Below, piece after piece: positions 10,085 to 31,954 of a stretch of DNA of 39,952 bases. The notes under the pieces are model-generated. The model was not told the DNA's origin and did not search any database. It saw only the letters and a list, made by a program, of their open reading frames with translations. The position numbers and the translations under genes were made by a program. The number at the start of each line of letters is the position of its first letter. The stretch's first letter is position 1. Source of the stretch: Methanobacteriota archaeon (GTDB lineage: Archaea > Thermoplasmatota > Thermoplasmata > RBG-16-68-12); the NCBI GenBank assembly GCA_005878525.1, contig VBMB01000138.1, positions 1-39,952 of the forward strand, in the 5' to 3' direction.

Positions 10085-11011
10085 TCAGCGACGCTTCAAC
10101 GCTGGGTTCATGATCTCCTCGAGTCCGTATCCTAGCATGGCGAAGCCTAGCACCACCACCGTGATGAAGAGTCCGGGCGGGCCAAAGTACCACCAATGAC
10201 CCTGGACAAGTGCGAGGTGGACGTACGATTCATTGACGAGGACTCCCCAGCTCTTGATCACGTCGGGTCCCGACGCGCCCAGGCCGAAGAAAGAGAGAAA
10301 GGCCTCCGTGAAGACCGAGTTCGACACGGTCAGCACGGCCTCCGCCCAAACGAGCGGCATAACGTTCGGAATAATGTGCTTACGGACGATGAAACCCGGT
10401 CGCGCACCGATCGCGCGGGACCGTTCGATGAACTGACGTTCCTTTACGGTCAGAACTTGCGATCGGATTACCCGCGCGGTGCTCGGCCAACTAACGATGG
10501 CAATTGCCAGGATGATCGTGGGGAGGCTGGGCGTAAGGATGATGACGAGTACCAGGACGAACGGGAGCCAAGGTATCACAAGGAAGAAATCGGTCATCCG
10601 CGCGAGGATCAGGTCCGTTATGCCGCCGTAGAAGCCGCCAAAGACGCCTACCGCGGTCCCGAGGACCATCGCGACGATCGATGCGCTGAACCCGATAATC
10701 AGCGAGATTTGTCCGCCATAAACGAGAAGAGTCAAGAGATCGAAGCCCTCCCAGTCGGTTCCGAGCCAGTGAGCGCTTGACGGAGGCAAGTTGTCGTCCG
10801 TCCGCTGCAGCTGCGTTGGATACGGCCCGACGAGAAGCGGAGCCCCGAACGATATGACCGAGAAGAGCACAATGATGGCGATGCCCGCGAAGGCAAGGCG
10901 GTTCTTTATCAAAACCGCAGCAAACTTACGGAACCTTTCGATGTCGTGCGAGAGCCGCTCGCGAAGCAGGGAATACCGCCTTCCGACGACGGTGGTCTCC
11001 CCCATCTTCAT
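10085..11011 (-). CDS. Peptide/nickel-type ABC transporter permease (DppC-like)
   Basis: 308 aa with PLLVGPYPTQLQRTDDNLPPSSAHWLGTDWEGFDLLTLLVYGGQISLIIGF and ERSRAIGARPGFIVRKHIIPNVMPLVWAE (EAA loop). Confidence 0.93.
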   Translation of the reverse strand: MKMGETTVVGRRYSLLRERLSHDIERFRKFAAVLIKNRLAFAGIAIIVLFSVISFGAPLLVGPYPTQLQRTDDNLPPSSAHWLGTDWEGFDLLTLLVYGGQISLIIGFSASIVAMVLGTAVGVFGGFYGGITDLILARMTDFFLVIPWLPFVLVLVIILTPSLPTIILAIAIVSWPSTARVIRSQVLTVKERQFIERSRAIGARPGFIVRKHIIPNVMPLVWAEAVLTVSNSVFTEAFLSFFGLGASGPDVIKSWGVLVNESYVHLALVQGHWWYFGPPGLFITVVVLGFAMLGYGLEEIMNPALKRR

Positions 11012-12003
11012 GCCTCGCGAACCCGAGGGTCTAGGAACATGTACAGGACATCCGCCATCGCATTGGCGACGACCACGCCAATGGTGGCGATCAGAAAAAT
11101 CCCCGAAAGGAGGGGGAAGTCAAAAGCTGTCGTAGCTTCCCAAGTGAGCTGGCCGAGGCCTTGGATGGTAAAGACAATTTCGATAACGATTGCCCCGCTC
11201 ACGACCCAACCAAAGTACAACGCGGACGCAGTCACCAACGGCAACCGCGCGTTCGGCAACGCGTGCCAGCGCAGCTGTTGACCCTGACTCAACCCCTTTG
11301 CGCGCGCGGTTATCATGTAATCTTCGGGCAAGACGTCGGTCAGGGAGTTGCGCAACGTCAGGGAAAACCAGGCAACGTTCGTGATGACGAACGTGGCGAC
11401 GGGCAGGATCAAATGCCACATGTAGTCCAGGACCGTCGAAAGCAAGTCCATCCGCGCATACGCACCAAAGTCCCAATACACGGGAAAAATACGTATGGTT
11501 ACTGAGAGGCTGAAGATCAACAAGAGAGACACCCAGAAGGACGGCATCGAGTACCCAAATAGGGTGGAAAGGGTGATGATGACGTCCGCCGGGCGTCCGC
11601 GCCTCCATCCCGAGATCCGACCGAGGATGATTCCAAGCCACATGGTCGTGGCGGTGGCCACGCCGACGAGGATGAGTGTCGTCCAGAGGCGTGGGGCGAT
11701 GATGGTCGCAACGGGGACCCCTGTCTGGTACGTGATGGAGGTCCCTAGGTTCCCGGAGAACACGTTCCGGAGGTACGTGGCAAAGCGGACGATGAGGGGC
11801 TGGTCAAGGGCCCATTCGTGGATCAACGCCGCCCGGAGGGGGCACTCACCGGTCACATTCGATGTTCCGCAGCCCCGGGGCAAGAGCACGTACGTAGGGT
11901 CCCCGGCGATGACTTGAAAGAGAAGGAAATTCAGAGACGCGATGAAGAAAATGGTGATGATTACATAGACGGTCTTCCGCAATAGATACCGTCGAAAGTT
12001 CAT
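11008..12003 (-). CDS. Peptide/nickel-type ABC transporter permease (DppB-like)
   Basis: 331 aa. MNFRRYLLRKTVYVIITIFFIASLNFLLFQVIAGDPTYV N-terminus, EDYMITARAKGLSQGQQLRWHALPNARLPLVTA EAA loop. Overlaps DppC start by 4 bp. Confidence 0.93.
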   Translation of the reverse strand: MNFRRYLLRKTVYVIITIFFIASLNFLLFQVIAGDPTYVLLPRGCGTSNVTGECPLRAALIHEWALDQPLIVRFATYLRNVFSGNLGTSITYQTGVPVATIIAPRLWTTLILVGVATATTMWLGIILGRISGWRRGRPADVIITLSTLFGYSMPSFWVSLLLIFSLSVTIRIFPVYWDFGAYARMDLLSTVLDYMWHLILPVATFVITNVAWFSLTLRNSLTDVLPEDYMITARAKGLSQGQQLRWHALPNARLPLVTASALYFGWVVSGAIVIEIVFTIQGLGQLTWEATTAFDFPLLSGIFLIATIGVVVANAMADVLYMFLDPRVREA

Positions 12004-12039
12004 CCGGTCCCTTCTGGTCGCGGCCGATGCTGCTCGCCC

Positions 12040-12056
12040 GATCGCTCCCGGCGATC
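12040..12056 (-). promoter_or_regulatory. Small inverted repeat (possible mRNA stem-loop) at SBP/permease junction
   Basis: GATCGC-tcccg-GCGATC, 6-bp perfect arms and 5-nt loop, overlapping the end of the SBP stop codon. Confidence 0.4.
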
Positions 12057-14880
12057 ATCGACTCGGGACTTCGATTTTACCTTCTTCCTCCTCTTTCTTC
12101 CGGCGGCGCATCCTCAGGAAAACGGCGACCGCCACCAACACGGCGACGATGCCCAGCGCGGTGCCGGCAATGACGAGGGGCGACAACCCCGCTGGCGGCT
12201 GAGCCAGCGGATTCAAGGAGAAGTCGACGGTCTTCGTTTGTCCATCCACGACCACGATGCCGGTCTTGTTGCTCGACAAGTAACCGGTCGCACTCGCGTT
12301 GACGGAGTAAGTCCCTGGCGTGAGAGACTTGTTGTACGACCCTTGGCTATTCGCGCTCACCGCGTACTGCTGTCCGCCGCTCGCATAAATGTAGATCGCG
12401 GCTCCGGCGATCGGGGTGTTCCCGGCGGCGCTTCGTACGGTGCCCGCGATCCACCCTCGAGCCGGGATGAGGAGGAAGTTCACCGCCGTCATCGCATTCG
12501 CGGAGACGGTCACGCCCGTCGTGGTCTTGCTTTCGTGCAGAGACGCACTGGCCGTCACGGCGTACGTCCCGGCCGGAAGCAGGATGCTGTACGCCCCGGT
12601 TGAATCCGTCAAGGCGGCGTAACTCCCGGGCGACGTGCGAACCCCGGCCCCGGAAATCGCGAGTTGGGTCGTGCTATCTTTGACCGTTCCATTCACCCAA
12701 CCCAGGCCTCCGACGACCGGGACTACATGGACTTCGAACGGGTCCGAGGTGGCGCTTAACGCCCCATCGGATACCGTCAACGTCACGTTGTAGTATCCCG
12801 AGCCCGCCCATTTGTAGGAGGCCGTATCGCCCTGGGCCGCTGAGGTGGTCGAGTGGATCGTCTGGTTGCCTTCTCCCCAATGCCAGGCCCACGTCAGCGT
12901 CTCGCCCGGATCCGGGTCCGTCGAATTGCCAATGAAGGTCACTGACTGATTCACGAACGCCGTGATCGGTGGCGTGCCGGCAAGGATGGGCTTCGTAGGT
13001 GGGTTGTTCACGGGTCCGCCCATCACGGTCAAGTCGAAGAACAAGGGGTTAGCGCCCCAGAAGGCATCCATCTGGCGGTACGGATGGGCGTTCCAGTCGC
13101 CCCAACCGGTGAACCGGTCCGTCCGCCAAGCCCACTCGCCGTACGGAAAAAGGTAGATGATGTAGACTGCGCTCTCGTAGTTCAGTTTCTCGGCCGCCCG
13201 CACATCTTTCTGCCTCTGAGTGAAGTTCGTGTCAGAGAGCTGCTTCACGTAGAGGGCGGTGTAACTCGCATTGTCCCAGAAGTTGTCGTTCCAGCCATCA
13301 AGGGTGAAGCTCGACTCGATGCTGAGCAGGTAGTTCGGGTCCGGATCGCCGGACCAGTACCAGATGTATGTGTCCACTTTGCCGCCATAGACGTCCTTAC
13401 TCAGCGAATTCTCCAGCTTGGTTGTTGGGACCAGCTTGATCCCGATCTGGGCCCACGCGGTCACCAAGTAGTTGCCGACGGCCTGTTCCTGCAAGAATTC
13501 CTTCCGGACGTCCATCGAGAAGATGAGTTGCGTGCCTTGTGCGATTGTCCTCGGTTTGCCATTCGTGTCGGTGAAGCTGATTGTTCGGTTCGCTTGCCGG
13601 TACCGAGCTCCGGAGCGGTCCGTCCACCATGAGTCGTACCCAGCCCTGTCCAGGAGCGCGTTCGCCGCGCTGACATCGAACGTCAGGTTCGCGCCGGGAT
13701 CGGATGGCGGATCGTACCACCACTGTGGAGTGATCGGGGTCATGAGAGAGTCGCCCCGGACCCCGTGGCCTCCGTAGATCGTCTTTAGGATGTAATCCTT
13801 GTTTGTCGCCATTGCCATCGCCCGGCGGACGTTCTCATCGTATCGGGCGGGGTTGAGGAACGTCGTATCATACTGCGAGATGCCAATTTCATTCCAGTAC
13901 TGGGTGCTGATCAATCCCTCCTGCCGCGCGATGCCGCTCGCCCCCGCCAATGACTCGTAGCCGGCGGAGCTAAACTTCCCCATGTCGATGGCGCCGGTCT
14001 CAAGCGCGTACACCATTTGGCTCTCGTCTAGGAATTGAATCATGTAAATGGTATCAATATTGGACGGTCCCGTGTGGCTCCCGACCGGATGGTACTTGGG
14101 ATTCTTGTGAACCGCGATCGGCTGGTGCTGCGACCATTGCGTGCAGATGTTCGAGTCCGCAACGAACGGGCCGCTCCCGATTAGCCCGGGAGGGCTGCTG
14201 GTCGGACAGTTGTCGTATCGGTACTGCGCGTTGTCGAGCGCAATGCCGAACCATTGGCTTCGGGGGATGATTGGGAAGAAGAGCGCCTTGCCCGGCACAA
14301 AAGGCCGGTCGAAGTAGACGGTCACGTTCCCCGGGGACGTGACCTGCGCTTGGCATCTGGCGCCCGGGGGCGGATCCACATACGAATGCTGGGTGGGCGG
14401 CACTCCGCAAGACACGATACGGTTCGCATAAGGTTCGTAGTTCCACAAGAGGTTGAAGTTCTGGGCGTTGTAATTGATGGTGAAGGCAACGTCGGATGCG
14501 GTCAACGGGGTGCCGTCGGACCAGTTCACGTTTTGCCGAATCCAATACGTCCAATTCTGAGACGTGGCATCCGGGACAGCGTTCACCGCGATGCTAGGAA
14601 CGAAATTTCCATCTTGATCAAACGAGTACAGATAATCGTAAACCAGCCCATAGAACTCGAACGACGGATCATTTAGGCCTTGGAACGGGTTCAGTTTGTC
14701 GAGCGCTTCGAGGAAGCCGATGCGCAACTCGACCGGGGCCGCCTTCGGGGCAGGCGTGGCTGGTGCGGCTCCGACCGGCTGCACTGCGAGAACGAAGACG
14801 ACCAACCCACAAATCACGCCAAGGCGCGTCTGCCAAATACGAATCGCCTCCAAAGAGAGGTGGAACCGCCTCCGCCCCAC
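12055..14880 (-). CDS. Peptide ABC transporter substrate-binding protein with PKD domain, two carboxypeptidase-regulatory-like domains and C-terminal membrane anchor
   Basis: 941 aa. SBP_bac_5-type segments, PKD-like (STDPDPGETLTWAWHWGEG...GYYNVTLTVSDG), two GWVNGTVKDSTTQLAISGAGV.../GWIAGTVRSAAGNTPIAGAAI repeats, terminal TM plus RMRRRKKEEEE. Confidence 0.88.
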   Translation of the reverse strand: MGRRRFHLSLEAIRIWQTRLGVICGLVVFVLAVQPVGAAPATPAPKAAPVELRIGFLEALDKLNPFQGLNDPSFEFYGLVYDYLYSFDQDGNFVPSIAVNAVPDATSQNWTYWIRQNVNWSDGTPLTASDVAFTINYNAQNFNLLWNYEPYANRIVSCGVPPTQHSYVDPPPGARCQAQVTSPGNVTVYFDRPFVPGKALFFPIIPRSQWFGIALDNAQYRYDNCPTSSPPGLIGSGPFVADSNICTQWSQHQPIAVHKNPKYHPVGSHTGPSNIDTIYMIQFLDESQMVYALETGAIDMGKFSSAGYESLAGASGIARQEGLISTQYWNEIGISQYDTTFLNPARYDENVRRAMAMATNKDYILKTIYGGHGVRGDSLMTPITPQWWYDPPSDPGANLTFDVSAANALLDRAGYDSWWTDRSGARYRQANRTISFTDTNGKPRTIAQGTQLIFSMDVRKEFLQEQAVGNYLVTAWAQIGIKLVPTTKLENSLSKDVYGGKVDTYIWYWSGDPDPNYLLSIESSFTLDGWNDNFWDNASYTALYVKQLSDTNFTQRQKDVRAAEKLNYESAVYIIYLFPYGEWAWRTDRFTGWGDWNAHPYRQMDAFWGANPLFFDLTVMGGPVNNPPTKPILAGTPPITAFVNQSVTFIGNSTDPDPGETLTWAWHWGEGNQTIHSTTSAAQGDTASYKWAGSGYYNVTLTVSDGALSATSDPFEVHVVPVVGGLGWVNGTVKDSTTQLAISGAGVRTSPGSYAALTDSTGAYSILLPAGTYAVTASASLHESKTTTGVTVSANAMTAVNFLLIPARGWIAGTVRSAAGNTPIAGAAIYIYASGGQQYAVSANSQGSYNKSLTPGTYSVNASATGYLSSNKTGIVVVDGQTKTVDFSLNPLAQPPAGLSPLVIAGTALGIVAVLVAVAVFLRMRRRKKEEEEGKIEVPSR

Positions 14881-16026: not shown

Positions 16027-16932
16027 GTGTTCCGCCCGTGGCGCAGCTTCCCGACGATGGTCGCCTCGGGCCTGGTGATCGGCTTCGCGACGGGCGGCTT
16101 TCCCGCGTACTCGAAGGAGATTTCGCAGGTCGCCCTCGTGCTCGGGATGACGTTCTCGATGACCGAAATCTCGATCTCCGGGATTTCCCCGCGCGCTGAG
16201 CTGCGACCGTTCTTGGTGGCCTTCGGGATGAGCTACGTCGTCCTGAGCGGTCTGATCCTCGCCTTCGCCGTCCTGAGTCCGGATCCTCAAATCCGGAGTG
16301 GTTGGGTGCTCATGGCGGCGGTCCCCCCGGCCATCGCCGTCGTGCCGATTACGTCCATCCTCCGAGGAGATACGCGTCAGTCCGTGATTGCTTTGGCCCT
16401 TCTGTATCTGCTTGGCCTAGGTCTCGTACCGGCCATCACCCTCGTTTTCACGAACCAAGCCGCGCCGTTCGGAGAACTCGTCTTGCAAACGGTCTTGCTG
16501 ATTGGAGTCCCGCTCATCGCGTCCCGGTTCCTCCGGCGGTTTCCCCGAGTCGTCAGTTTTCGCGGTAGTGGGGTGAGCATCTCGTTCTTCTTTCTCGTCG
16601 TGGCGACGGCCGGCTCCACCCGCGGACCGTTATTGGCCCATCCCGAGCTCATCACGTCTCTCGCCCTGTTTTCGTTCGGACGGACCTTCCTATTGGGTGG
16701 GGTTGTTTTCCTGCTCACGCGGGCGCTCCGCATCCCATGGGCGGATCGAGTGGCCGTGACCACGTTCTCGTCGTTCAAGAATCTCGGCTTGACGGTCGTC
16801 CTCGCGTTCGCGGTGTTCGGCTCCGTCGCCACGTTGCCTTCAATCGTTTCCCTGGTCTTTGAGATTCTCTGGCTGGCGGCGCTGCCTTTGTTGTTCCGAG
16901 CAGACATGCCCGGAGCCGCGCCACTTGCTTAG
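16027..16932 (+). CDS. Bile acid:sodium symporter (BASS/SBF)-like membrane transporter
   Basis: 301 aa, about 9-10 TM. LGMTFSMTEISISG, PPAIAVVPITSILRGDTRQSVIAL and SFKNLGLTVVLAF resemble the SBF family. GTG start. Confidence 0.68.
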   Translation: MFRPWRSFPTMVASGLVIGFATGGFPAYSKEISQVALVLGMTFSMTEISISGISPRAELRPFLVAFGMSYVVLSGLILAFAVLSPDPQIRSGWVLMAAVPPAIAVVPITSILRGDTRQSVIALALLYLLGLGLVPAITLVFTNQAAPFGELVLQTVLLIGVPLIASRFLRRFPRVVSFRGSGVSISFFFLVVATAGSTRGPLLAHPELITSLALFSFGRTFLLGGVVFLLTRALRIPWADRVAVTTFSSFKNLGLTVVLAFAVFGSVATLPSIVSLVFEILWLAALPLLFRADMPGAAPLA

Positions 16933-17515: not shown

Positions 17516-19339
17516 GTGGTCGACATTCTGTCAACTCCGTTTCTGTGGGTCGTCGTCACGATCGGGCTGTATGGAGTCGCGTACTGGGGCTATGGAAAGT
17601 GGATCGACCGGAACGTGTGGCGATCCAGCGCGAAGAAGGCGACGCCGGCGCACATGTACATGGACGGCGTGGAGTACTTTCCCGTGAGTCGGTACGTCCT
17701 CTGGGGCTATCAGTTCAAGAGTATCGCGGCGCTCGGACCGATTCTGGGTCCGTTCATTGGAATCACGTTCGGATGGCTTCCTGCCCTCCTGTGGATCATC
17801 GGCGGGAACTTCTTCATCGGATGGCTGCAAGACTACGGCGCGATGATGTTGTCGGTCCGGAAAGAGGGACGTTCGTTCGGACCGATTACATACGAGTTCA
17901 CGGGGGCCCGGGGCCGGACAAACCTGCTCGCCTTCGTCCTGTTCTACCTCATCATCATCTCGGCGACGTTCATTGCCCTCATCGCGTCGTTCTGGAACGC
18001 GTTCCCGGGGACGTTCGTCGCAACGGTCGGCATCCTCCTCGCCGGGCTGCTCTGCGGCCAGCTCCTGTACCGGGTCAAGATGAACGTCTTCGCGGTCACC
18101 GGAATCGGACTCGCCGTGGTCGTCCTGAGCATCTACTTGGGCGTGGCCTTCCCGATTACCCTTGGTTTCGGGGTGTGGAACATCCCCATCTGGGCGTTCG
18201 TGGCCGCCGTCATCCTGTACGCTGCCGCGGTCCTTCCGACTCCGATGTTCGTCCAGCCGACGAACTACCTGGCGTTCTACCCGGCCTACGCGGCAATTCT
18301 CTTGATTCTCTTCGGAGCCCTCATGACCCCGTTTTGGGGCGCCAGCTTCCTCGGGTTGACGTTGCCGAGGGCACCTACCCCGATTAGCATCCAGATGCCG
18401 GCCGGCCCGTTCTGGTTTGATCCCCAGGGAATCCTCGGGCCGATCTGGCCAATCCTGTTCGTCGCGATCGCCTGCGGCGCGATCTCCGGATGGCACAGCC
18501 TCGTGAGCAGCTCGTCGTCGGCGAAACAGCTGGACATCGAAACGGACGCCCTCCCGGTTGGCGGCGGAGCGATGCTCTCGGAAGGACTCCTGGCTCTCGC
18601 CTCGCTGATCGCGTACATGGTCCTCGCCCCGAGCTTCTTCGTCGGCCGCACGAATGTCGCGGCCTGGGTCGCGGGCGCGGTCACGCTCACGACGCCGTTC
18701 CTCGGTGGTCTGACGGCTCCGATCCTGACGACGTTCTTCGGCCTCGTGCTCATCATTTATGCGCTCACGGTTCAGGCGCTCGTCACGCGATTCTTCCGCC
18801 TCGTCGCCGCGGAATCGTGGAGCGAAGGTCGGTTCCACGTGTTCGGCAACAAGCACGTCTCGACGGTGGTCGGCCTCGGCATCCCATGGGCATTCGCGGT
18901 CTCCGGGAGCTGGTGGGCCCTCTGGTTGTACTTCGGTGGCGCGAATCAGCTCCTTGCGGGTCTTGCGATCATGCTCATCACGATCCACCTCGCAAGGACG
19001 CGCGCCCCGACGAGGTTCTCCCTCATCCCCGGGGTCTTCATGATCGTGACGACTTTGGCGGCACTGGTGTGGCAAACCGGGACGTTCCTGTACTCCGTCT
19101 GGGCGTACCTGAACAACGACAACTCATGGGTCCTCCGGAACGTCCGGCCGCCGATTAACACGAAGGACTACATCCTCGTGGCCGTCGCAATCAATGCGGT
19201 CTTCGTCGCCGTGGGAACCGTGTTGTTCGCTGTCGGCCTGTCGATGGCGGTCCGGCTGTTCCGCAGCTACCGCAGCAGCATGGCGGAGCGTCGCGCTCGG
19301 GCGCCCGCGGCTGCGGACGGCGGCGAGCGAGAGAGGTAG
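17516..19339 (+). CDS. cstA: Carbon starvation protein CstA family (peptide/pyruvate transporter)
   Basis: 607 aa. ATPAHMYMDGVEYFPVSRYVLWGYQFKSIAALGPILGPFIGITFGWLPALLWI and GAISGWHSLVSSSSSAKQLDIETDA are hallmark CstA motifs. GTG start. Confidence 0.95.
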   Translation: MVDILSTPFLWVVVTIGLYGVAYWGYGKWIDRNVWRSSAKKATPAHMYMDGVEYFPVSRYVLWGYQFKSIAALGPILGPFIGITFGWLPALLWIIGGNFFIGWLQDYGAMMLSVRKEGRSFGPITYEFTGARGRTNLLAFVLFYLIIISATFIALIASFWNAFPGTFVATVGILLAGLLCGQLLYRVKMNVFAVTGIGLAVVVLSIYLGVAFPITLGFGVWNIPIWAFVAAVILYAAAVLPTPMFVQPTNYLAFYPAYAAILLILFGALMTPFWGASFLGLTLPRAPTPISIQMPAGPFWFDPQGILGPIWPILFVAIACGAISGWHSLVSSSSSAKQLDIETDALPVGGGAMLSEGLLALASLIAYMVLAPSFFVGRTNVAAWVAGAVTLTTPFLGGLTAPILTTFFGLVLIIYALTVQALVTRFFRLVAAESWSEGRFHVFGNKHVSTVVGLGIPWAFAVSGSWWALWLYFGGANQLLAGLAIMLITIHLARTRAPTRFSLIPGVFMIVTTLAALVWQTGTFLYSVWAYLNNDNSWVLRNVRPPINTKDYILVAVAINAVFVAVGTVLFAVGLSMAVRLFRSYRSSMAERRARAPAAADGGERER

Positions 19340-19695: not shown

Positions 19696-20688
19696 ATGGG
19701 CCTTGCCTCCTTTTTCGAGAAGAAAGGCGACAAAGGGATCGTGATCTTCGCCGGGAAAGGGGGCCTCGGCAAGACGACGTGCAGCGCCGGCCTGAGTCAC
19801 TACATGGCCTCGAAACGGAAGCGCAACGTGCTCTGTTTCTCCACAGATCCGCAGGCGAGCCTGAGCGATATTTTCGACCGGGACATTTTCGGAAAAGGGC
19901 TCGTCTCCGTCATCCCGAACCTGGACGTAGTGGAGATCGATGCGGACCGGCGCGTGGCCGACTACCAAAATGAAGTCAAGCAGAAGATCCTCACCATGTA
20001 CGGGCTTTCGGAGCTCCCTGTGGAAATCGAAGAATATATCGACTCGACGTCAGCGGAGCCCGCGATGTACGAGTCGGCGACGTACGACGCGATGGCCGAC
20101 CTCGTGTCCACGAGCGGCCACGACCTGTACGTGTTCGACATGCCGCCGTTCGGCCACGGCGTTCGCATGATCGCGATGGCGGAGATCCTGAGCAAGTGGG
20201 TCGGGAAAATCACGGAGGCGCGCGAGAAGGCCCAGGAGTACGAGGCGGTCGCGGCGACCTTGAAGGGGACGAAGGTCTCGGAGGACGAGGTCCTCAAGGA
20301 GCTTCAAGACATTCAGGCGAAGATCACGCGGTTCACGGACCTCATGGTCGACCAGCGGCGCACATCCTTCTTCATGGTCCTGATCCCGGAGCGCATGGCG
20401 ATCCTGGACACGGAGCGCGCGCTCGAGATGTTCGACGCCCTCGGCCTTCAGATGGCGGGGTTGATCGTGAACCAGGTGTACCCTGCGGAGCTCGCCGAGG
20501 CGAAAGGCGGCGAAGCGGTCGAGTTCCTCCGGAACCGCGCGCGGATGCAGCGGAAATATCTCGATGAGATCAAATCGAAGTTCGCGGGGAAGGTCGTCGC
20601 GATGCTCCCGATGTACCCGAGGGAACCGCGCGGACTCGACATGATCGAGCGGGTGTCCCAAGACCTGCTCTTCGGACCCGCGCTCTAG
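19696..20688 (+). CDS. Get3/ArsA-family ATPase (copy 1)
   Basis: 330 aa. Deviant Walker A FAGKGGLGKTT, switch I STDPQASLSD (canonical D retained), switch II region VFDMPPFGHGVRM. Confidence 0.92.
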   Translation: MGLASFFEKKGDKGIVIFAGKGGLGKTTCSAGLSHYMASKRKRNVLCFSTDPQASLSDIFDRDIFGKGLVSVIPNLDVVEIDADRRVADYQNEVKQKILTMYGLSELPVEIEEYIDSTSAEPAMYESATYDAMADLVSTSGHDLYVFDMPPFGHGVRMIAMAEILSKWVGKITEAREKAQEYEAVAATLKGTKVSEDEVLKELQDIQAKITRFTDLMVDQRRTSFFMVLIPERMAILDTERALEMFDALGLQMAGLIVNQVYPAELAEAKGGEAVEFLRNRARMQRKYLDEIKSKFAGKVVAMLPMYPREPRGLDMIERVSQDLLFGPAL

Positions 20689-20698
20689 GTGATGCCGT

Positions 20699-21733
20699 GT
20701 GACGACCCTTCCCGAACTCCTCGAACAACGGCCGAAGATGCGGTACATCTTCACGGGCGGAAAGGGAGGCGTCGGGAAAACGGTTGCCGCGGCGGGGCTC
20801 GCGTACCACTGCGCTTCCCAAGGCGAGAGCGTCCTGGTCGCGTCCTTGAACCCGGTCCACTCCCTGTCGAGCCTGTTCGGCCAGAGCCTTTCCGGCGGAA
20901 AGGTCATCGAGGTGAAGGGCGCGAAGAACGTGTATGCGGTCGAGGTGGAAACGACCGAGGTCGTGGAACGTTACCGTAATTCGATTCGAGGCCGCGTCAA
21001 GGAATTCCTGAAGTGGGCGGACATCCCCCTCGATGCGAGGCCGTTCATCGAGATTGCCGCGACGAACCCTGCGTTCGAGGAGAGCGCGATGTTCGATCGG
21101 ATGGTCGATTACATCCTCAAAGAAGGCGAAGCGTACGATCGCGTGATCTTCGACACCGCGGCGGTCGCGAACGCGGTGCGCCTGATCGGCCTGAGCAAGA
21201 TCTACGGCCTCTGGCTCACCCGCATGATCGATTCGCGCAAGGAGGCGCTTAGCATGCGCGTCCAGCTCTCGTTCCGGAAGGAGAAGGTCATGGCGGAGGT
21301 GAAGAAGGATCCGCTCATGGCGGACCTCATTTCCATGAACGAGCGGTTCGAGAAGGCCAAAGGCGTGCTCGTAGATCCCGAACGGACCGCGTTCTTCTTC
21401 GTGACTCTGCCGCTCGCCCTCCCGATCGCAGTCGTCCGTCGTTTCATTGGGATGGTTCAGAAGTTCAACATCCCGATCGGCGGGGTCGTCGTGAACGAGG
21501 TGCTCCGCCCGGAGATCGCGCTGCAAGACGGCGCAGGCGAGTACCTCGCGAACAAGTACCACGAACAGACCGCGTACATGAAGGTCCTGTACCGCGACTT
21601 GGGTCCGCTCGTCCGGTCGTACATCCCGCTGTATTCGTCCGAGGTCACGGGGGTCGACATGGTCCGTCGGGTCTCCGAGGACATGATGACGTACACCCCG
21701 CCCTTCGCTGCCGAATTGATGGGCGCGGCATGA
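20699..21733 (+). CDS. Get3/ArsA-family ATPase-like protein (copy 2), divergent switch I
   Basis: 344 aa. Walker A TGGKGGVGKTV. Switch I is SLNPVHSLSS instead of STDPAHSLSD. Switch II region FDTAAVANAVRLI. GTG start 10 bp after copy 1. Confidence 0.92.
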   Translation: MTTLPELLEQRPKMRYIFTGGKGGVGKTVAAAGLAYHCASQGESVLVASLNPVHSLSSLFGQSLSGGKVIEVKGAKNVYAVEVETTEVVERYRNSIRGRVKEFLKWADIPLDARPFIEIAATNPAFEESAMFDRMVDYILKEGEAYDRVIFDTAAVANAVRLIGLSKIYGLWLTRMIDSRKEALSMRVQLSFRKEKVMAEVKKDPLMADLISMNERFEKAKGVLVDPERTAFFFVTLPLALPIAVVRRFIGMVQKFNIPIGGVVVNEVLRPEIALQDGAGEYLANKYHEQTAYMKVLYRDLGPLVRSYIPLYSSEVTGVDMVRRVSEDMMTYTPPFAAELMGAA

Positions 21734-22218
21734 AGCCCACGACGCGGGATCACGTCGTCGCTGCGACGCACTTCGTCTTGGGTCCCTCAAATTTTGTTGT
21801 GATTCGCCTTCCGGACAATTGGGACTTGCGCCTCGGTCGACATCCGATGGATGTGGACTACACGGTCGCCTACGACGGCGTGCGTTGGGCCCAAGAAGGC
21901 CGGGCCGCGGGGCTCCTCGTCGATGCACGAGCCCGGCGGGCGATCGAGTTGTCCGTGCGAACCTCGCGCGGATCGATCCCGCCCCCGAAGTTCGATGAGT
22001 CCCACCCCGGGACGTGCAAGATCGGAGGCCATTCGGCTTCCTACACGCTTGGCTCGGCTCACTTCGGCCTCCTGGGGACGAAGATCTATCACGTGCTCCA
22101 TGTGTCGTACCGGTGCGACGAGACCCAGCGTCTCGTCGATCTCCGGTTCATGCACCGCGGAGCGCCGGAACTTCTCGAAGGGCTGCTGTCTCCTCTCGCG
22201 GGAACGCGCTGCCACTAG
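21730..22218 (+). CDS. Hypothetical protein P3 translationally coupled to ATPase copy 2
   Basis: 162 aa. ATGA start/stop overlap with the upstream ATPase gene. Family not recognised. Confidence 0.75.
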   Translation: MKPTTRDHVVAATHFVLGPSNFVVIRLPDNWDLRLGRHPMDVDYTVAYDGVRWAQEGRAAGLLVDARARRAIELSVRTSRGSIPPPKFDESHPGTCKIGGHSASYTLGSAHFGLLGTKIYHVLHVSYRCDETQRLVDLRFMHRGAPELLEGLLSPLAGTRCH

Positions 22219-22850
22219 GCAGCGAGGCGTTCCGCCAATGCCCGGATGGCCGCGATTCCTCGAGACGCGGCCCCCGGTGCCACGGACACGGAGGCCGCGA
22301 TGCCCGGCTGCTTCCCGGAGGTCACATGGAGGGCCGCGATCGGGTCCAGCGTGCCGGGGTCGATGCTTTCCAGGATTCGACGGGCACTCCGCTCGTCGTC
22401 CGAGGACAGGAGGAGTTCACTCCCACCGAGGGAGACGTTCGACCAGCCCGCTTTGGAGCGACTCCTCCGCCGGCCGATACGAGTCTGCGGGTCCACGAGC
22501 TCGAACTCGATCCGCGGGTCCTTCCGGAGGGAGGCCTCCACCAGCGCGGCATCTCGCCGGCCCTGAGCGGTCCCGATCGCCCAGTTGATTGGCATTTCTC
22601 GAGGTCGCAGGGTGACCGTGAGAGAGAATTCCTGAAAGGGCGGATCGGCTCCCTCCGTCTTCATCCGGAAGGCGGTCGTCCCGAACCACTGGATTTTCGA
22701 GGTCCCGCCCAACCCGACGACGGCCCGCTTGAGTTCTGTCCCGATCCGGCGGGCGAGGCGACGCGTGTAGACGAAGGCACCGTAGTACCAGACCAGAAAG
22801 AAGGCGGCGATGACGAGCACCGCGATCAAGCCGGGGTCGAGATCCGCCAC
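22215..22850 (-). CDS. Single-TM hypothetical protein
   Basis: 211 aa, N-terminal TM (LIAVLVIAAFFLVWYYGAFVY) followed by a soluble domain. Convergent, sharing CTAG with P3. Confidence 0.72.
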   Translation of the reverse strand: MADLDPGLIAVLVIAAFFLVWYYGAFVYTRRLARRIGTELKRAVVGLGGTSKIQWFGTTAFRMKTEGADPPFQEFSLTVTLRPREMPINWAIGTAQGRRDAALVEASLRKDPRIEFELVDPQTRIGRRRSRSKAGWSNVSLGGSELLLSSDDERSARRILESIDPGTLDPIAALHVTSGKQPGIAASVSVAPGAASRGIAAIRALAERLAA

Positions 22851-22943: not shown

Positions 22944-23213
22944 GTGAGCCGCTGGAGGCGCGCCTTGCAGATCGTCAAGGAGATCCTATGGGGCCTGTTC
23001 TTCTTCGACCTCTACACGGAGAACATGAAGATGCGCATCCGGTACAATGACGCGGTCAACCTTCTCGTCTTCTCGGAGCAGCTCGGGATCCCGCTCATGA
23101 ATTCCTACGTTTCCATGCGTCTGCTCCCATACTTTGTCGGGCAGCTCGAGGGATGGAAGCGCCGCGAGATGCGGGAGCGCGAGATCCTCGAGGAAGCCCC
23201 GGAGATTCACTAG
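22944..23213 (+). CDS. Small protein P2, paralog of P1
   Basis: GTG start gives 89 aa: MSRWRRALQIVKEILWGLFFF...EQLGIPLMNSYVSMRLLPYFVGQLEGWKRREMREREI, aligning with P1 without gaps over the last ~35 shared residues. Confidence 0.8.
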   Translation: MSRWRRALQIVKEILWGLFFFDLYTENMKMRIRYNDAVNLLVFSEQLGIPLMNSYVSMRLLPYFVGQLEGWKRREMREREILEEAPEIH

Positions 23214-24518: not shown

Positions 24519-24748
24519 ACCGGCCACCTCCGGATCCACGGATCCAGCCCGCGCACGGCCCAAGCGTAGCGGACTGCGGAGTCCGACGGGAGGGCGTCGT
24601 TCGTCTCATCAATTGGCTTCGTAAATCGTCTGTTTCTCTTGTTCCAATGCATGTTTGGTTGATTGCAATGGACGTTAATAAAGCCTTTGTTTTAATTATG
24701 GAAACATTTATGTTAGAGCACAAACATACATTGTTCCGGAGGCGGCCA

Positions 24749-25366
24749 ATGAAGGCATTCAAGGTCATCAAGAGCCCCGAAGCATTTCAGCTTCTCGCAG
24801 ACGAAACACGGAGACGGATCATCTATCTTCTCCGGGCGAAAGAGATGACGGTGAGCCAGATTTCGGCGGAGCTCGGGCTCACGCCCCAGGCGATCTACCA
24901 TCACATCCGCAAGATGCGCGACGCCGACCTCGTCGAGGTCGCTCGCGAGGAACGCGTGGACCACTTCATCGAGACTTACTATCGCGCCACGGCGGAGATG
25001 TTCAACCTCTCCCACGGCGAGGGGATGTCCCCGGCGTATGCAGCGGAGAAGGCCACGGAGGCGTTGCAGGCCCTCGCGAAAATCGGGCTGCGCGTCCGGA
25101 CGGATCCGGAGGTCGTGGCCCGCATCGTCGAGCTCGAGAAGCGCATGGAGGCGGTCGGCGAGAAGCCGGAGTGGGCCGAGGCGATCGCCGGTCTCGAAGA
25201 CGTCGATTTCTTCGTGAAACAGGGGATCACCCATCTCGCGAAGCTGCTGACGATGACGGACAAGGAGTTCACCGAGTACCTGAACGTTGAGCGCGAATAC
25301 CGCAAGCTCTTACGGTCTCTCCTCGAGGAACCCGCGAAGGTCCAAGCGCTCGCCCGGAAAGCCTAG
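24749..25366 (+). CDS. ArsR-type winged-helix transcriptional regulator with C-terminal extension
   Basis: MKAFKVIKSPEAFQLLADETRRRIIYLLRAKEMTVSQISAELGLTPQAIYHHIRKMRDADLVEV. GGAGG-like SD upstream. Confidence 0.88.
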   Translation: MKAFKVIKSPEAFQLLADETRRRIIYLLRAKEMTVSQISAELGLTPQAIYHHIRKMRDADLVEVAREERVDHFIETYYRATAEMFNLSHGEGMSPAYAAEKATEALQALAKIGLRVRTDPEVVARIVELEKRMEAVGEKPEWAEAIAGLEDVDFFVKQGITHLAKLLTMTDKEFTEYLNVEREYRKLLRSLLEEPAKVQALARKA

Positions 25367-28753: not shown

Positions 28754-30049
28754 ATGAAACAGGTGATGGAGCCCCAGAACCGCCCCCAGCGGCGATCGCC
28801 GCTGGCGATGAAGTGCACCGTCAATCGCGCGAATCTGAAGCCGAATGCGGGCACCTCCGTGTACATTGCCGTGGACCTGACCCCGTCCGCCGCCGTCATC
28901 GCGGGGCGCGTCCGAAGCATCTCCCTCGCGATCGATTCGAGCGGTTCGATGGACGGCGAGAAGATCGAACAGGCGAAAGCCGCGGCGCTCGCTCTCATCA
29001 AACAGCTTCGCCCGACCGACCAGATAGCGATCGTGTCATTCTCGGACACCGTCACGGTCCAGCTGCCCATGACGCAAGTCGGGAACTCCCGAGAGGTCGC
29101 GGCGGCCGTGAAGGCCATCTCGGTCAGCGGCCTCACCGCGATGTACGACGGGCTGGATTCCGCCTTCAACCAGGCGCGCCGGGCCTCTCAGGAACCCGGG
29201 ACCGTGAATCGGGTCCTGCTCCTGACCGACGGCAATCCCACCGTCGGCAAGACGATCGGCTCGGAGTTCGTGACCCTCGCACAGCGGATTCGCGAATCCG
29301 GCATCACGATCACCGCGATCGGGATTGGAACCGACTACAACGAGCAATTGCTGGAGAAGATTGCTGAATCCGGCGGGGGGCTGTGGCACCACATCGTGGA
29401 TGCAAGAGCCAACCTCCCCCAGATTTTCCAGGACCAAGCGGCCCAGATGGCGGGCACCGTCGTCTCGAATCCCGAGTTGAAAGTCTCAATCATGCCCGGG
29501 TCGGAGCTGGCCGATGCCTATACCGTCAAGCCGGTCCTAAACCGACTGCCTCGACCTCGGTTCGACGGAGCCGCCTATGCGGTTCCGCTACGAGACCTGA
29601 TCGCGGGTGAAGAGCAGACGCTCGTGTTCCGAATTGGCGTCCCGTCGAAGCCCGCGGGGAAGGCGACGCTGATTCGCTTCTCTTTGGTCGAAGTGATGCA
29701 AGACGTCGAAGTGAATTTCACCGACGACCCGAGGCTGTCGAACGCCGAGACAAACCCGTACCCACGCACTCTGCTGAGCTCGGCGGAGGCGACCGTCCTT
29801 ATGCAGCGGGCGGTGCAGTCGAGGGATGCGACGGCGCTCCAGAAGGCGGAGACGATCATGCGGTCCATGGCGACGGATGCCGGCGCGGCGACCGCGATTC
29901 GCGCGAACCCCACCCTGAGCGACGTCGCGACGACGATGCGGGATGCCCAGGCGACGGTCGCACGGAGCGGGCTCCAGCTCAGCGACGCCGCGAAGAAGGA
30001 CTTCCTGCAATCGACGACGATCATCGGGAAGAAGAAACCGAAGCGGTGA
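28754..30049 (+). CDS. VWA-domain protein (phosphosignalling operon)
   Basis: 431 aa. MIDAS LAIDSSGSMDGEKIEQAK, GLTAMYDGLDSAF, LLLTDGNPT. Confidence 0.92.
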   Translation: MKQVMEPQNRPQRRSPLAMKCTVNRANLKPNAGTSVYIAVDLTPSAAVIAGRVRSISLAIDSSGSMDGEKIEQAKAAALALIKQLRPTDQIAIVSFSDTVTVQLPMTQVGNSREVAAAVKAISVSGLTAMYDGLDSAFNQARRASQEPGTVNRVLLLTDGNPTVGKTIGSEFVTLAQRIRESGITITAIGIGTDYNEQLLEKIAESGGGLWHHIVDARANLPQIFQDQAAQMAGTVVSNPELKVSIMPGSELADAYTVKPVLNRLPRPRFDGAAYAVPLRDLIAGEEQTLVFRIGVPSKPAGKATLIRFSLVEVMQDVEVNFTDDPRLSNAETNPYPRTLLSSAEATVLMQRAVQSRDATALQKAETIMRSMATDAGAATAIRANPTLSDVATTMRDAQATVARSGLQLSDAAKKDFLQSTTIIGKKKPKR

Positions 30050-30729
30050 TGAACGTGACGAAGTGTTCTGCGTGCGGAAGCGAGAACAGGCAAGACGCAC
30101 GATTCTGCGACGCGTGCGGCGCGAAGATTGAACCCGAAGCCGAAACGTCGGAATTGAAGCTCGCCCCGATGCCGGCCGAGGACGAGGGCTCGATCGCTCC
30201 GACGAACGAGGACGAAAGCCTCGTCGATTCGATGTTTGGCCCGGAAGCGGGCGGGCTCGAACCCACGGGTGAACCGGAGCCCTCCGCCGATGCGATGGAA
30301 CCGGAGGGCGAAAGTTCCCCCGACCTCGCAGACGTCGAGGACGAAGGCCCGGCCGAGGCCACGGAGCCCGAGGAAGAGCTCCCGGCCCCGCTGCCCAAGG
30401 CGGGTTACCTCGTGTTTCCCGACAACACGGAGCAGCCGATTCCCCCGTCCCAGTGGTTGATTGGCCGCACGGACTTGGCGAAATACCTCCCCGACCCGAA
30501 ACAGGCGAACGAGATTTCGCGAGGGCATCTCACGGTCTTCCAGGAAGGCGATCGGTTCTTCGTCGAAGACGGGACGACGATGGTGCAACGGAAGGCCAGC
30601 ACGAACAAGACCTGGCTGGTCCGAGGCAGCTCCCGAATCCTGGTCACCGGGACGGGCCGCACCGAGCTCCAGCACGACGATGAGATTGACGTCGCGGAAT
30701 TGGTCACGCTGCAGTTCGTGGTGAGATAG
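30049..30729 (+). CDS. Zinc-ribbon plus FHA-domain protein
   Basis: N-terminal KCSACGSENRQDARFCDACGAKI, acidic linker, then FHA-like WLIGRTDLAKYLPDPKQANEISRGHLTVFQEGDRFFVED. Start overlaps upstream stop (GTGATGA). Confidence 0.88.
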   Translation: MNVTKCSACGSENRQDARFCDACGAKIEPEAETSELKLAPMPAEDEGSIAPTNEDESLVDSMFGPEAGGLEPTGEPEPSADAMEPEGESSPDLADVEDEGPAEATEPEEELPAPLPKAGYLVFPDNTEQPIPPSQWLIGRTDLAKYLPDPKQANEISRGHLTVFQEGDRFFVEDGTTMVQRKASTNKTWLVRGSSRILVTGTGRTELQHDDEIDVAELVTLQFVVR

Positions 30730-30742
30730 GCCTGCGAACGGT

Positions 30743-31954
30743 ATGACCCTCTCCCTTCCCTGCACCTTGAAAGGTCGGAAGGGTCGCTACGAAGTCGTCT
30801 CCAAGTTGACGGAAGGAGGGATGTCGACCATTTATCTCGGCAAGTCCAAGCGCGGTCAATCCGTCATCGTGAAAGAAGCGAGCGGGGTCGATCTCGCCCA
30901 ATCCGAGGAACGACTTCGGATCGAAGCCGAGATCCTACGCACGCTCAGCTCGCCCGGCCATCCGAGGGTCGTCCGATATCTGGACGTGGGCAGCAACCTC
31001 GGACCGTTCTGTCTCGTGGAGGAACAACTCGAAGGCGAGACGGTGGCGGAGTTGTACAAGGATAAGCCAGCCGATGCGGCGACGGCTACTCGACACATCA
31101 TCCAGCTCCTCGAGGCGCTCTCGTACCTCCACGGGCGGAACGTGATCCACCGGGACGTGAAGCCGAAGAACATCATCCTCGACGCCCGCCGAGAGGTCGT
31201 CCTCATCGACTTCGGAGCGGCGAAGAAGGAGTTCCACCAGTTCACCGGGTCCGGAACCGTCATCTACACACCGGGCTGGGGAGCCCCTGAGCAGAACCTG
31301 GGAGAGGCGACTCCGGCGAGCGATCTGTACAGCGTGGGCGCGGTGCTCTTCTTCCTCCTCACCGCCAAGGACCCCCAAGCTTCGATGAAACAGCTCGCGG
31401 CCGGTAAATCCGAACTCTTCCGATCCCCCCGCGACCTCGAACCCAGCGTCCCCCGGGAGCTCTCGGAAGTCGTGACGCGGGCCATGTCGTTCGATCCGAA
31501 GGAACGGTTCCCTACGGCCCAGGACATGGCGCAAGCGATGTCCGGCGGATCGGGGGAGTCGCTCGAGTTTCCGCACCTCGTGGTGCTAGGAAAGAAGTGC
31601 AAGGTCAAGCGGGAGATGGAGATCGGCCGGGACCACAAATCCTGCGACCAGAGTTGCACGAAGAGAGGCTTCGGGCACCCTCCCGAGATCGGCATCCTCG
31701 ATGCGGAACGGTACCTGTCGAAGCATCACGCCCGGATTCTGAAGGATGGGAAAGGCCGCTGCTGGATTGAAGACCTGGGGAGCTTGAACGGCACGGCGAT
31801 GTCCCACGACGGCGGGAGAACCTATCGACAGATCCCGGGATTCAAACGCGAAAAGCTGACCGACGGCGATGTCGTCGCCCTCGTGTACAAGCCGGGGCGC
31901 GGGCCGTACATGACGATCGCATTCAAAGGTGGCCGACGACGCGGGGGCCGGTGA
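30743..31954 (+). CDS. Ser/Thr protein kinase with C-terminal FHA domain
   Basis: 403 aa. LTEGGMSTIYLGK, VIHRDVKPKNIIL, LIDFGAAK, GWGAPEQ, then EIGRD...YLSKHHARILKD...WIEDLGSLNGT. Confidence 0.95.
   Translation: MTLSLPCTLKGRKGRYEVVSKLTEGGMSTIYLGKSKRGQSVIVKEASGVDLAQSEERLRIEAEILRTLSSPGHPRVVRYLDVGSNLGPFCLVEEQLEGETVAELYKDKPADAATATRHIIQLLEALSYLHGRNVIHRDVKPKNIILDARREVVLIDFGAAKKEFHQFTGSGTVIYTPGWGAPEQNLGEATPASDLYSVGAVLFFLLTAKDPQASMKQLAAGKSELFRSPRDLEPSVPRELSEVVTRAMSFDPKERFPTAQDMAQAMSGGSGESLEFPHLVVLGKKCKVKREMEIGRDHKSCDQSCTKRGFGHPPEIGILDAERYLSKHHARILKDGKGRCWIEDLGSLNGTAMSHDGGRTYRQIPGFKREKLTDGDVVALVYKPGRGPYMTIAFKGGRRRGGR

Follow-up and report, generated by a model that had tools for sequence, protein, structure and literature searches.

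What is the role of two adjacent Get3/ArsA-type ATPase genes, the second of which encodes an Asn at the position of the catalytic switch I Asp? The question is raised by an archaeal contig of 39,952 nucleotides (hereafter, the window), where the two genes, here termed A1 and A2, lie on the same strand and are separated by 10 bp. A1 is an ORF of 330 amino acids with an ATG start codon, and A2 is an ORF of 344 amino acids that starts at a GTG codon. In yeast Get3, the engineered D57N substitution yields a protein that binds ATP without hydrolysing it (PMC12506534). An earlier note on this DNA had proposed that the pair forms a heterodimer of one hydrolytic and one ATP-locking subunit, acting as a Get3-type targeting or sorting factor rather than as an arsenite pump.

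Nucleotide sites of the two ATPases

The profile search against PF02374 suggested by the earlier note places both proteins, over their full length, far above the cut-off of 24.3 bits (Table 1), and its description of two adjacent single-domain ATPases is borne out. The scores against TIGR00345 (GET3_arsA_TRC40) are 215 bits for A1 and 182 bits for A2, with a cut-off of 135. By sequence, the nearest solved structures are archaeal Get3 3zq6 and 3ug6, and the AlphaFold2 model of A2 (pLDDT 83) likewise finds its best PDB matches in archaeal Get3 (3ug6, 3ug7 and 3zq6). No PF02374 protein beyond A1 and A2 was found in the genome, which is 81% complete.

As first read from the sequence, A1 keeps the TD of switch I (STDPQASLSD) together with a deviant but Lys-complete P-loop (GKGGLGKTT), and its switch II reads FDMPPFGHGVR. 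In A2, the P-loop is GKGGVGKTV and switch I reads SLNPVHSLSS. The switch I alignment of A2 to archaeal Get3 (3ug6/3zq6) is ungapped, and A2 Asn51 is therefore the equivalent of yeast Get3 Asp57, as had been claimed. In the same alignment, no acidic residue of the switch takes the place of Asp57 in A2. The switch II of A2, also flagged at the outset as altered, is degraded (FDTAAVANAVR), and the distal Asp of switch I is lost as well. The rest of the nucleotide site is intact, with the trans-acting signature Lys, the Walker A Lys and Thr, the switch II Asp, the adenine-side Asn of the VNQ motif, and all further nucleotide-binding residues that were checked being invariant in both A1 and A2.

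A1 has invariant changes of its own, a P-loop Val to Leu and a switch I DPAH to DPQA replacement that are found in 42/42 A1 orthologues, and the active half is thus specialised too.

Table 1. Coordinates in the window of the ATPase pair, its switch I residues and the neighbouring module genes
Feature	Description	Position	Strand	Basis
CstA	Transporter of the carbon-starvation family, 607 aa; opens the cluster	17516..19339	+	PF02554 316 bits
CstX1	Small protein, 96 aa	19397..19687	+	NCBIfam NF041419 (cory-CC-star) E 1.4e-8, below 80-bit cut-off; X1 class in 33 loci
A1	Catalytically complete Get3/ArsA-type ATPase	19696..20688	+	PF02374 231 bits; Asp in 42/42 orthologues
A1 Asp51	Catalytic Asp of switch I, equivalent to yeast Get3 D57	19846..19848	+	Sequence; alignment with M. 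thermautotrophicus Get3
A2	Get3/ArsA-type ATPase, Asn in switch I	20699..21733	+	PF02374 179 bits; AF2 model; Asn in 46/46 orthologues
A2 Asn51	Asn (AAC) at catalytic Asp position	20849..20851	+	Asn in 46/46 orthologues
p162	Accessory protein, 162 aa, C-terminal Cys-His	21730..22218	+	Orthologues in most pair loci
CstY-like	211 aa, a single hydrophobic segment at the N-terminal end	22215..22850	-	Orthologues in paired and single-ArsA loci
CstX2	Second CstX paralogue, C-terminal His, start codon uncertain	~22965..23213	+	NF041419 E 2.5e-8, below cut-off

Conservation and single origin of the pair

Within the genus, A2 is carried by 13 genomes, including that of the window, and the switch sequence is identical in all of them. 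Outside the genus, a scan of genome contigs revealed A2 orthologues of 61-66% identity, with A1 adjoining, in four MAGs of Bacillota and one of Thermoprotei. Whole-genome searches, the counts of which rest on phylum-level genome draws, identified A2-type proteins in ~30 of 350 sampled Thermoproteota genomes and in 8 of 349 Bacillota genomes. In these searches of Thermoproteota and Bacillota, an A1 reading frame or remnant adjoins every A2 that was found, and the pairing is thus conserved in related genomes. Among distinct sequences from Thermoplasmatota, Thermoproteota and Bacillota, the residue is Asn in 46 of 46 A2 proteins, none having the Asp, and Asp in 42 of 42 A1 proteins. A sequencing error or a local degeneration of A2 is ruled out by this invariance, both in the 13 congeneric genomes and in all orthologues found. 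In two Thermoproteota loci (L075 of genome G513 and L084 of genome G605), a broken A1 reading frame lies beside an intact A2, representing either assembly error or decay.

In a maximum-likelihood tree, A1 forms one clade (100/98) and A2 another (100/100), and the two are mutual sisters (99/97); therefore, the duplication and the Asp/Asn split occurred once. Classing proteins by their Asn might be considered circular, and for this reason it is relevant that the tree was built without the Asn/Asp labels and nonetheless groups every Asn protein into a single clade without an Asp member. The total branch length over which the split has been kept is ~9.9 and 8.9 substitutions per site, the first figure being that for the Asn. 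Pairwise distances within A1 and within A2 are correlated with an r of 0.93, as expected for genes that are inherited together. A recent, lineage-specific duplication is ruled out, as A1 and A2 are 28% identical and fall into separate clades across three phyla.

The CstA module and its single-ATPase relatives

The pair is embedded in a module that consists of the genes for CstA, CstX1, A1, A2, p162, CstY and CstX2, the order of which varies among relatives. Profiles made from these genes recover the same set around the pair in Thermoproteota, Bacillota and Thermoplasmata, and CstA is present in nearly all pair regions that are long enough to contain it; the genome of the window has one CstA only. 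X1-class proteins lie beside CstA/A1 in the 33 loci of Table 1, and X2-class proteins are found in most pair loci. The CstX, CstY and p162 assignments rest on custom profiles, size and context, with CstX being identified by size, context and a sub-cut-off match to NF041419, and being set beside the published CstX by description. Across the phylum sample, a clear match to NF041419 is confined to the genome of the window, with three weak matches elsewhere, and the module is therefore patchy there. Some relatives lack it, among them a genome of the same genus that is 94% complete (G011).

The start of p162 overlaps the stop codon of A2 by 4 bp. Its AlphaFold2 model (pLDDT 91) has only weak matches, to the Tsi3, PsbP, Mog1, LpqN and Eag-chaperone folds (TM ~0.45), and a search of viral structures yielded no significant match. 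A C-terminal Cys-His is found in 23 of 29 relatives of p162, and a C-terminal His in 23 of 37 X2-class CstX2 proteins. These tails recall the C-terminal CC tail for which the cory-CC-star family is named, and could represent a shared metal or redox site. An ArsR-family HTH regulator (24647-25366; NF033788, above cut-off) is encoded ~1.4 kb downstream of CstX2.

The gene set of the module matches that of the cstA-cstX-cstY-arsA clusters in a 2010 study by Castillo and Saier (PMC2963123). On the basis of coevolution, they put forward that CstA is energised by ArsA homologues, to which CstX would link it. As in that system, CstA is adjacent to the ATPase genes, and a CstX gene of ~90 codons lies between CstA and ArsA. 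In the same study, two organisms have adjacent ArsA pairs (cluster 15) and two have a second CstX paralogue; the authors also found that the switch Asp was replaceable only by Asn, and suggested homodimers (PMC2963123). Coupling of an ArsA to CstA has thus already been proposed; what is new here, and absent from that study, is the invariant division of each pair into one Asp and one Asn protein, its origin in a single ancient duplication, the tracking of pairs by the number of CstX genes, and p162.

ArsA proteins that are linked to CstA or CstX and occur singly provide a natural comparison, and the Asp is kept in all sampled cases. Eight such loci are from Bacillota, each with a single CstX next to a single ArsA, and four are from Thermoproteota, where CstA and CstY accompany the single CstX and ArsA; two more single ArsAs that keep the Asp have neighbours cut off by contig ends. 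No p162 was found in the four sampled archaeal single-ArsA loci. Pair loci, in contrast, mostly have both an X1 and an X2 paralogue, a single CstX being present in four well-covered pair loci (L120, L129, L131 and L132). Loss of the Asp is seen only when an Asp-bearing partner is encoded next door, and CstX is usually duplicated as well, which is what an obligate heterodimer predicts.

A proposed one-sided ATPase for CstA and its alternatives

On balance, and with modest confidence, we favour a reading in which A1 and A2 form an obligate heterodimer with one active and one locked ATP site, a cytosolic ATPase that would be coupled through CstX to CstA. The asymmetry that the earlier note had put forward stands, with conserved pairing, the Asp-to-Asn change in the second copy only and the other ATP-binding residues kept, while the dimerisation itself is something that we infer. 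In such a dimer, the signature Lys of each subunit would complete the ATP site of its partner. Only A1 has the water-activating Asp, such that the A1 site would turn over and A2 is expected to bind but not to hydrolyse ATP, an inactivity that is also suggested by analogy with yeast Get3 D57N. The A2 site may then act as a clamp that keeps the dimer closed, or as a nucleotide sensor. CstX1 and CstX2, which were duplicated along with the ATPases, would link the heterodimer to CstA, and ATP binding together with hydrolysis at the A1 site would drive or gate CstA uptake of a peptide- or pyruvate-type substrate, in the manner of ArsA on ArsB.

A coupling role of small proteins is supported by the E. 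coli CstA, which imports pyruvate only with its small partner YbdD (PMC5847655). The E. coli CstA-YbdD system is described as a transporter without a Get3-like ATPase (PMC5847655), suggesting that CstA can work without one and that ATP therefore need not energise it. Within the heterodimer reading, the chances that ATP energises CstA transport are about even, the alternatives being nucleotide gating or assembly of CstX, CstY and CstA. A broader proposal, that in Thermoproteota, Bacillota and soil Thermoplasmata a deeply conserved, obligate asymmetric Get3/ArsA-type heterodimer lets CstA import its substrate at the expense of ATP, and that this non-ABC P-loop engine evolved the degenerate-site design independently, with two CstX couplers duplicated to match, is offered tentatively, and we would expect it to fail rather sooner than to hold.

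The Get3 fold, and the fact that paired ATPases track paired CstX, would also suit a dedicated Get3-like factor for the assembly or insertion of CstX1, CstX2, CstY or CstA that is not an energy source. The most hydrophobic CstX segment ends ~31-39 residues before the C-terminus in nearly all relatives, and p162 weakly resembles Mog1/PsbP and Eag-chaperone folds, both of which would be in keeping with such a role. However, the client-groove insert of the pair is not hydrophobic, the CxxC motif is absent, and the peak hydropathy of CstX is just ~1.5 over 19 residues, and we consider an assembly factor unlikely. A somewhat smaller likelihood is given to a regulator that senses ATP/ADP and would switch CstA open or shut with the energy state, hydrolysis serving only as a reset. 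The locked ATP site fits a sensor, as does the description of CstA homologues elsewhere that transport without such an ATPase (PMC5847655), but no sensor-specific feature was found and the full catalytic set is kept in A1. It is also conceivable that the Asn is tolerated and A2 is active by another route, with both subunits hydrolysing ATP, possibly as separate homodimers. That the Asp is replaced only by Asn in single-domain ArsA homologues (PMC2963123) is compatible with this possibility, which is nonetheless improbable given that the switch of A2 has no alternative acidic residue, that its switch II is degraded (FDTAAVANA) and that the distal Asp of switch I is lost.

The role in targeting or sorting envisaged by the earlier note, in the form of a general asymmetric Get3-type factor for tail-anchored proteins, is not sustained. 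The fold and sequence are Get3-like, and the incomplete genome has no other PF02374 protein that was found. Archaeal and eukaryotic Get3 (TRC40) shares the fold and nucleotide site with the pair, and A2 naturally has the change engineered in the D57N ATP-bound form (9ns5). Yet Get3 is homodimeric and has a zinc CxxC motif and a hydrophobic client groove, whereas A1 and A2 are a paralogue pair with neither: in the residue listing of 42 A1 and 46 A2 proteins, neither CxxC column has a Cys, and the mean KD of the client insert is -0.87 in A1 and -0.47 in A2, as compared to +0.45 in the one Get3 reference, from M. thermautotrophicus. In addition, the CstA/CstX context is constant, with the module in nearly every genome that has the pair, and its lack in some relatives, including the 94%-complete one, argues against a housekeeping function. 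Such a targeting factor is therefore very improbable. The pair is probably a one-sided ATP engine for CstA.

For an arsenite pump ATPase, there is the family name and the ArsR-family regulator downstream. The earlier note was right to dismiss this function, the probability of which is close to nil. The proteins are single-domain and not a fused ArsA of 600 amino acids, they score only 78-80 bits against TIGR04291 with its cut-off of 650, their context is that of CstA, and no Acr3 is found in the genome. Of 19 genomes of the genus, four (G003, G007, G010 and G011) have the Acr3 arsenite permease, independently of the ATPase pair, with G007 and G011 having Acr3 and no pair. An SBF-like membrane protein encoded at 16027-16932 was checked as an Acr3 candidate and has no NCBIfam match at E 0.01.

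The one-sided engine that we favour has partial parallels elsewhere. The ArsA of arsenite pumps likewise has two nucleotide sites that serve a membrane transporter, but it is a single two-domain polypeptide in an ars context, whereas A1 and A2 are separate, asymmetric subunits in a CstA context. In M. tuberculosis, two adjacent Get3-like genes encode Rv3679 and Rv3680 (BagA and BagB). Both products are contained in one PDB entry (6bs3), and A2 is very distant from them (E 1e-5 to 1e-4). Heterodimeric ABC exporters with a degenerate site combine a hydrolytic ATP site with an impaired one (for instance, PMC12038006 and PMC7756269); the similarity to A1/A2 is one of working and not of homology, as fold and transporter are unrelated.

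With a natural counterpart of D57N kept in one of two paired Get3/ArsA subunits, and single-gene, CstA-linked relatives as controls, the need of a Get3/ArsA dimer for two hydrolytic sites becomes directly testable through A1 and A2. Similarly, the conserved gene set offers a means of testing whether ArsA-like ATPases power CstA, as proposed in 2010.

Two further loci in the window may be mentioned. On the minus strand, positions 10085-14880 encode an oligopeptide-type ABC permease pair and a solute-binding protein of 941 amino acids with PKD and carboxypeptidase-regulatory-like domains. At 28754-31954, a vWA-domain protein adjoins a Ser/Thr kinase with an FHA domain, in an archaeon.
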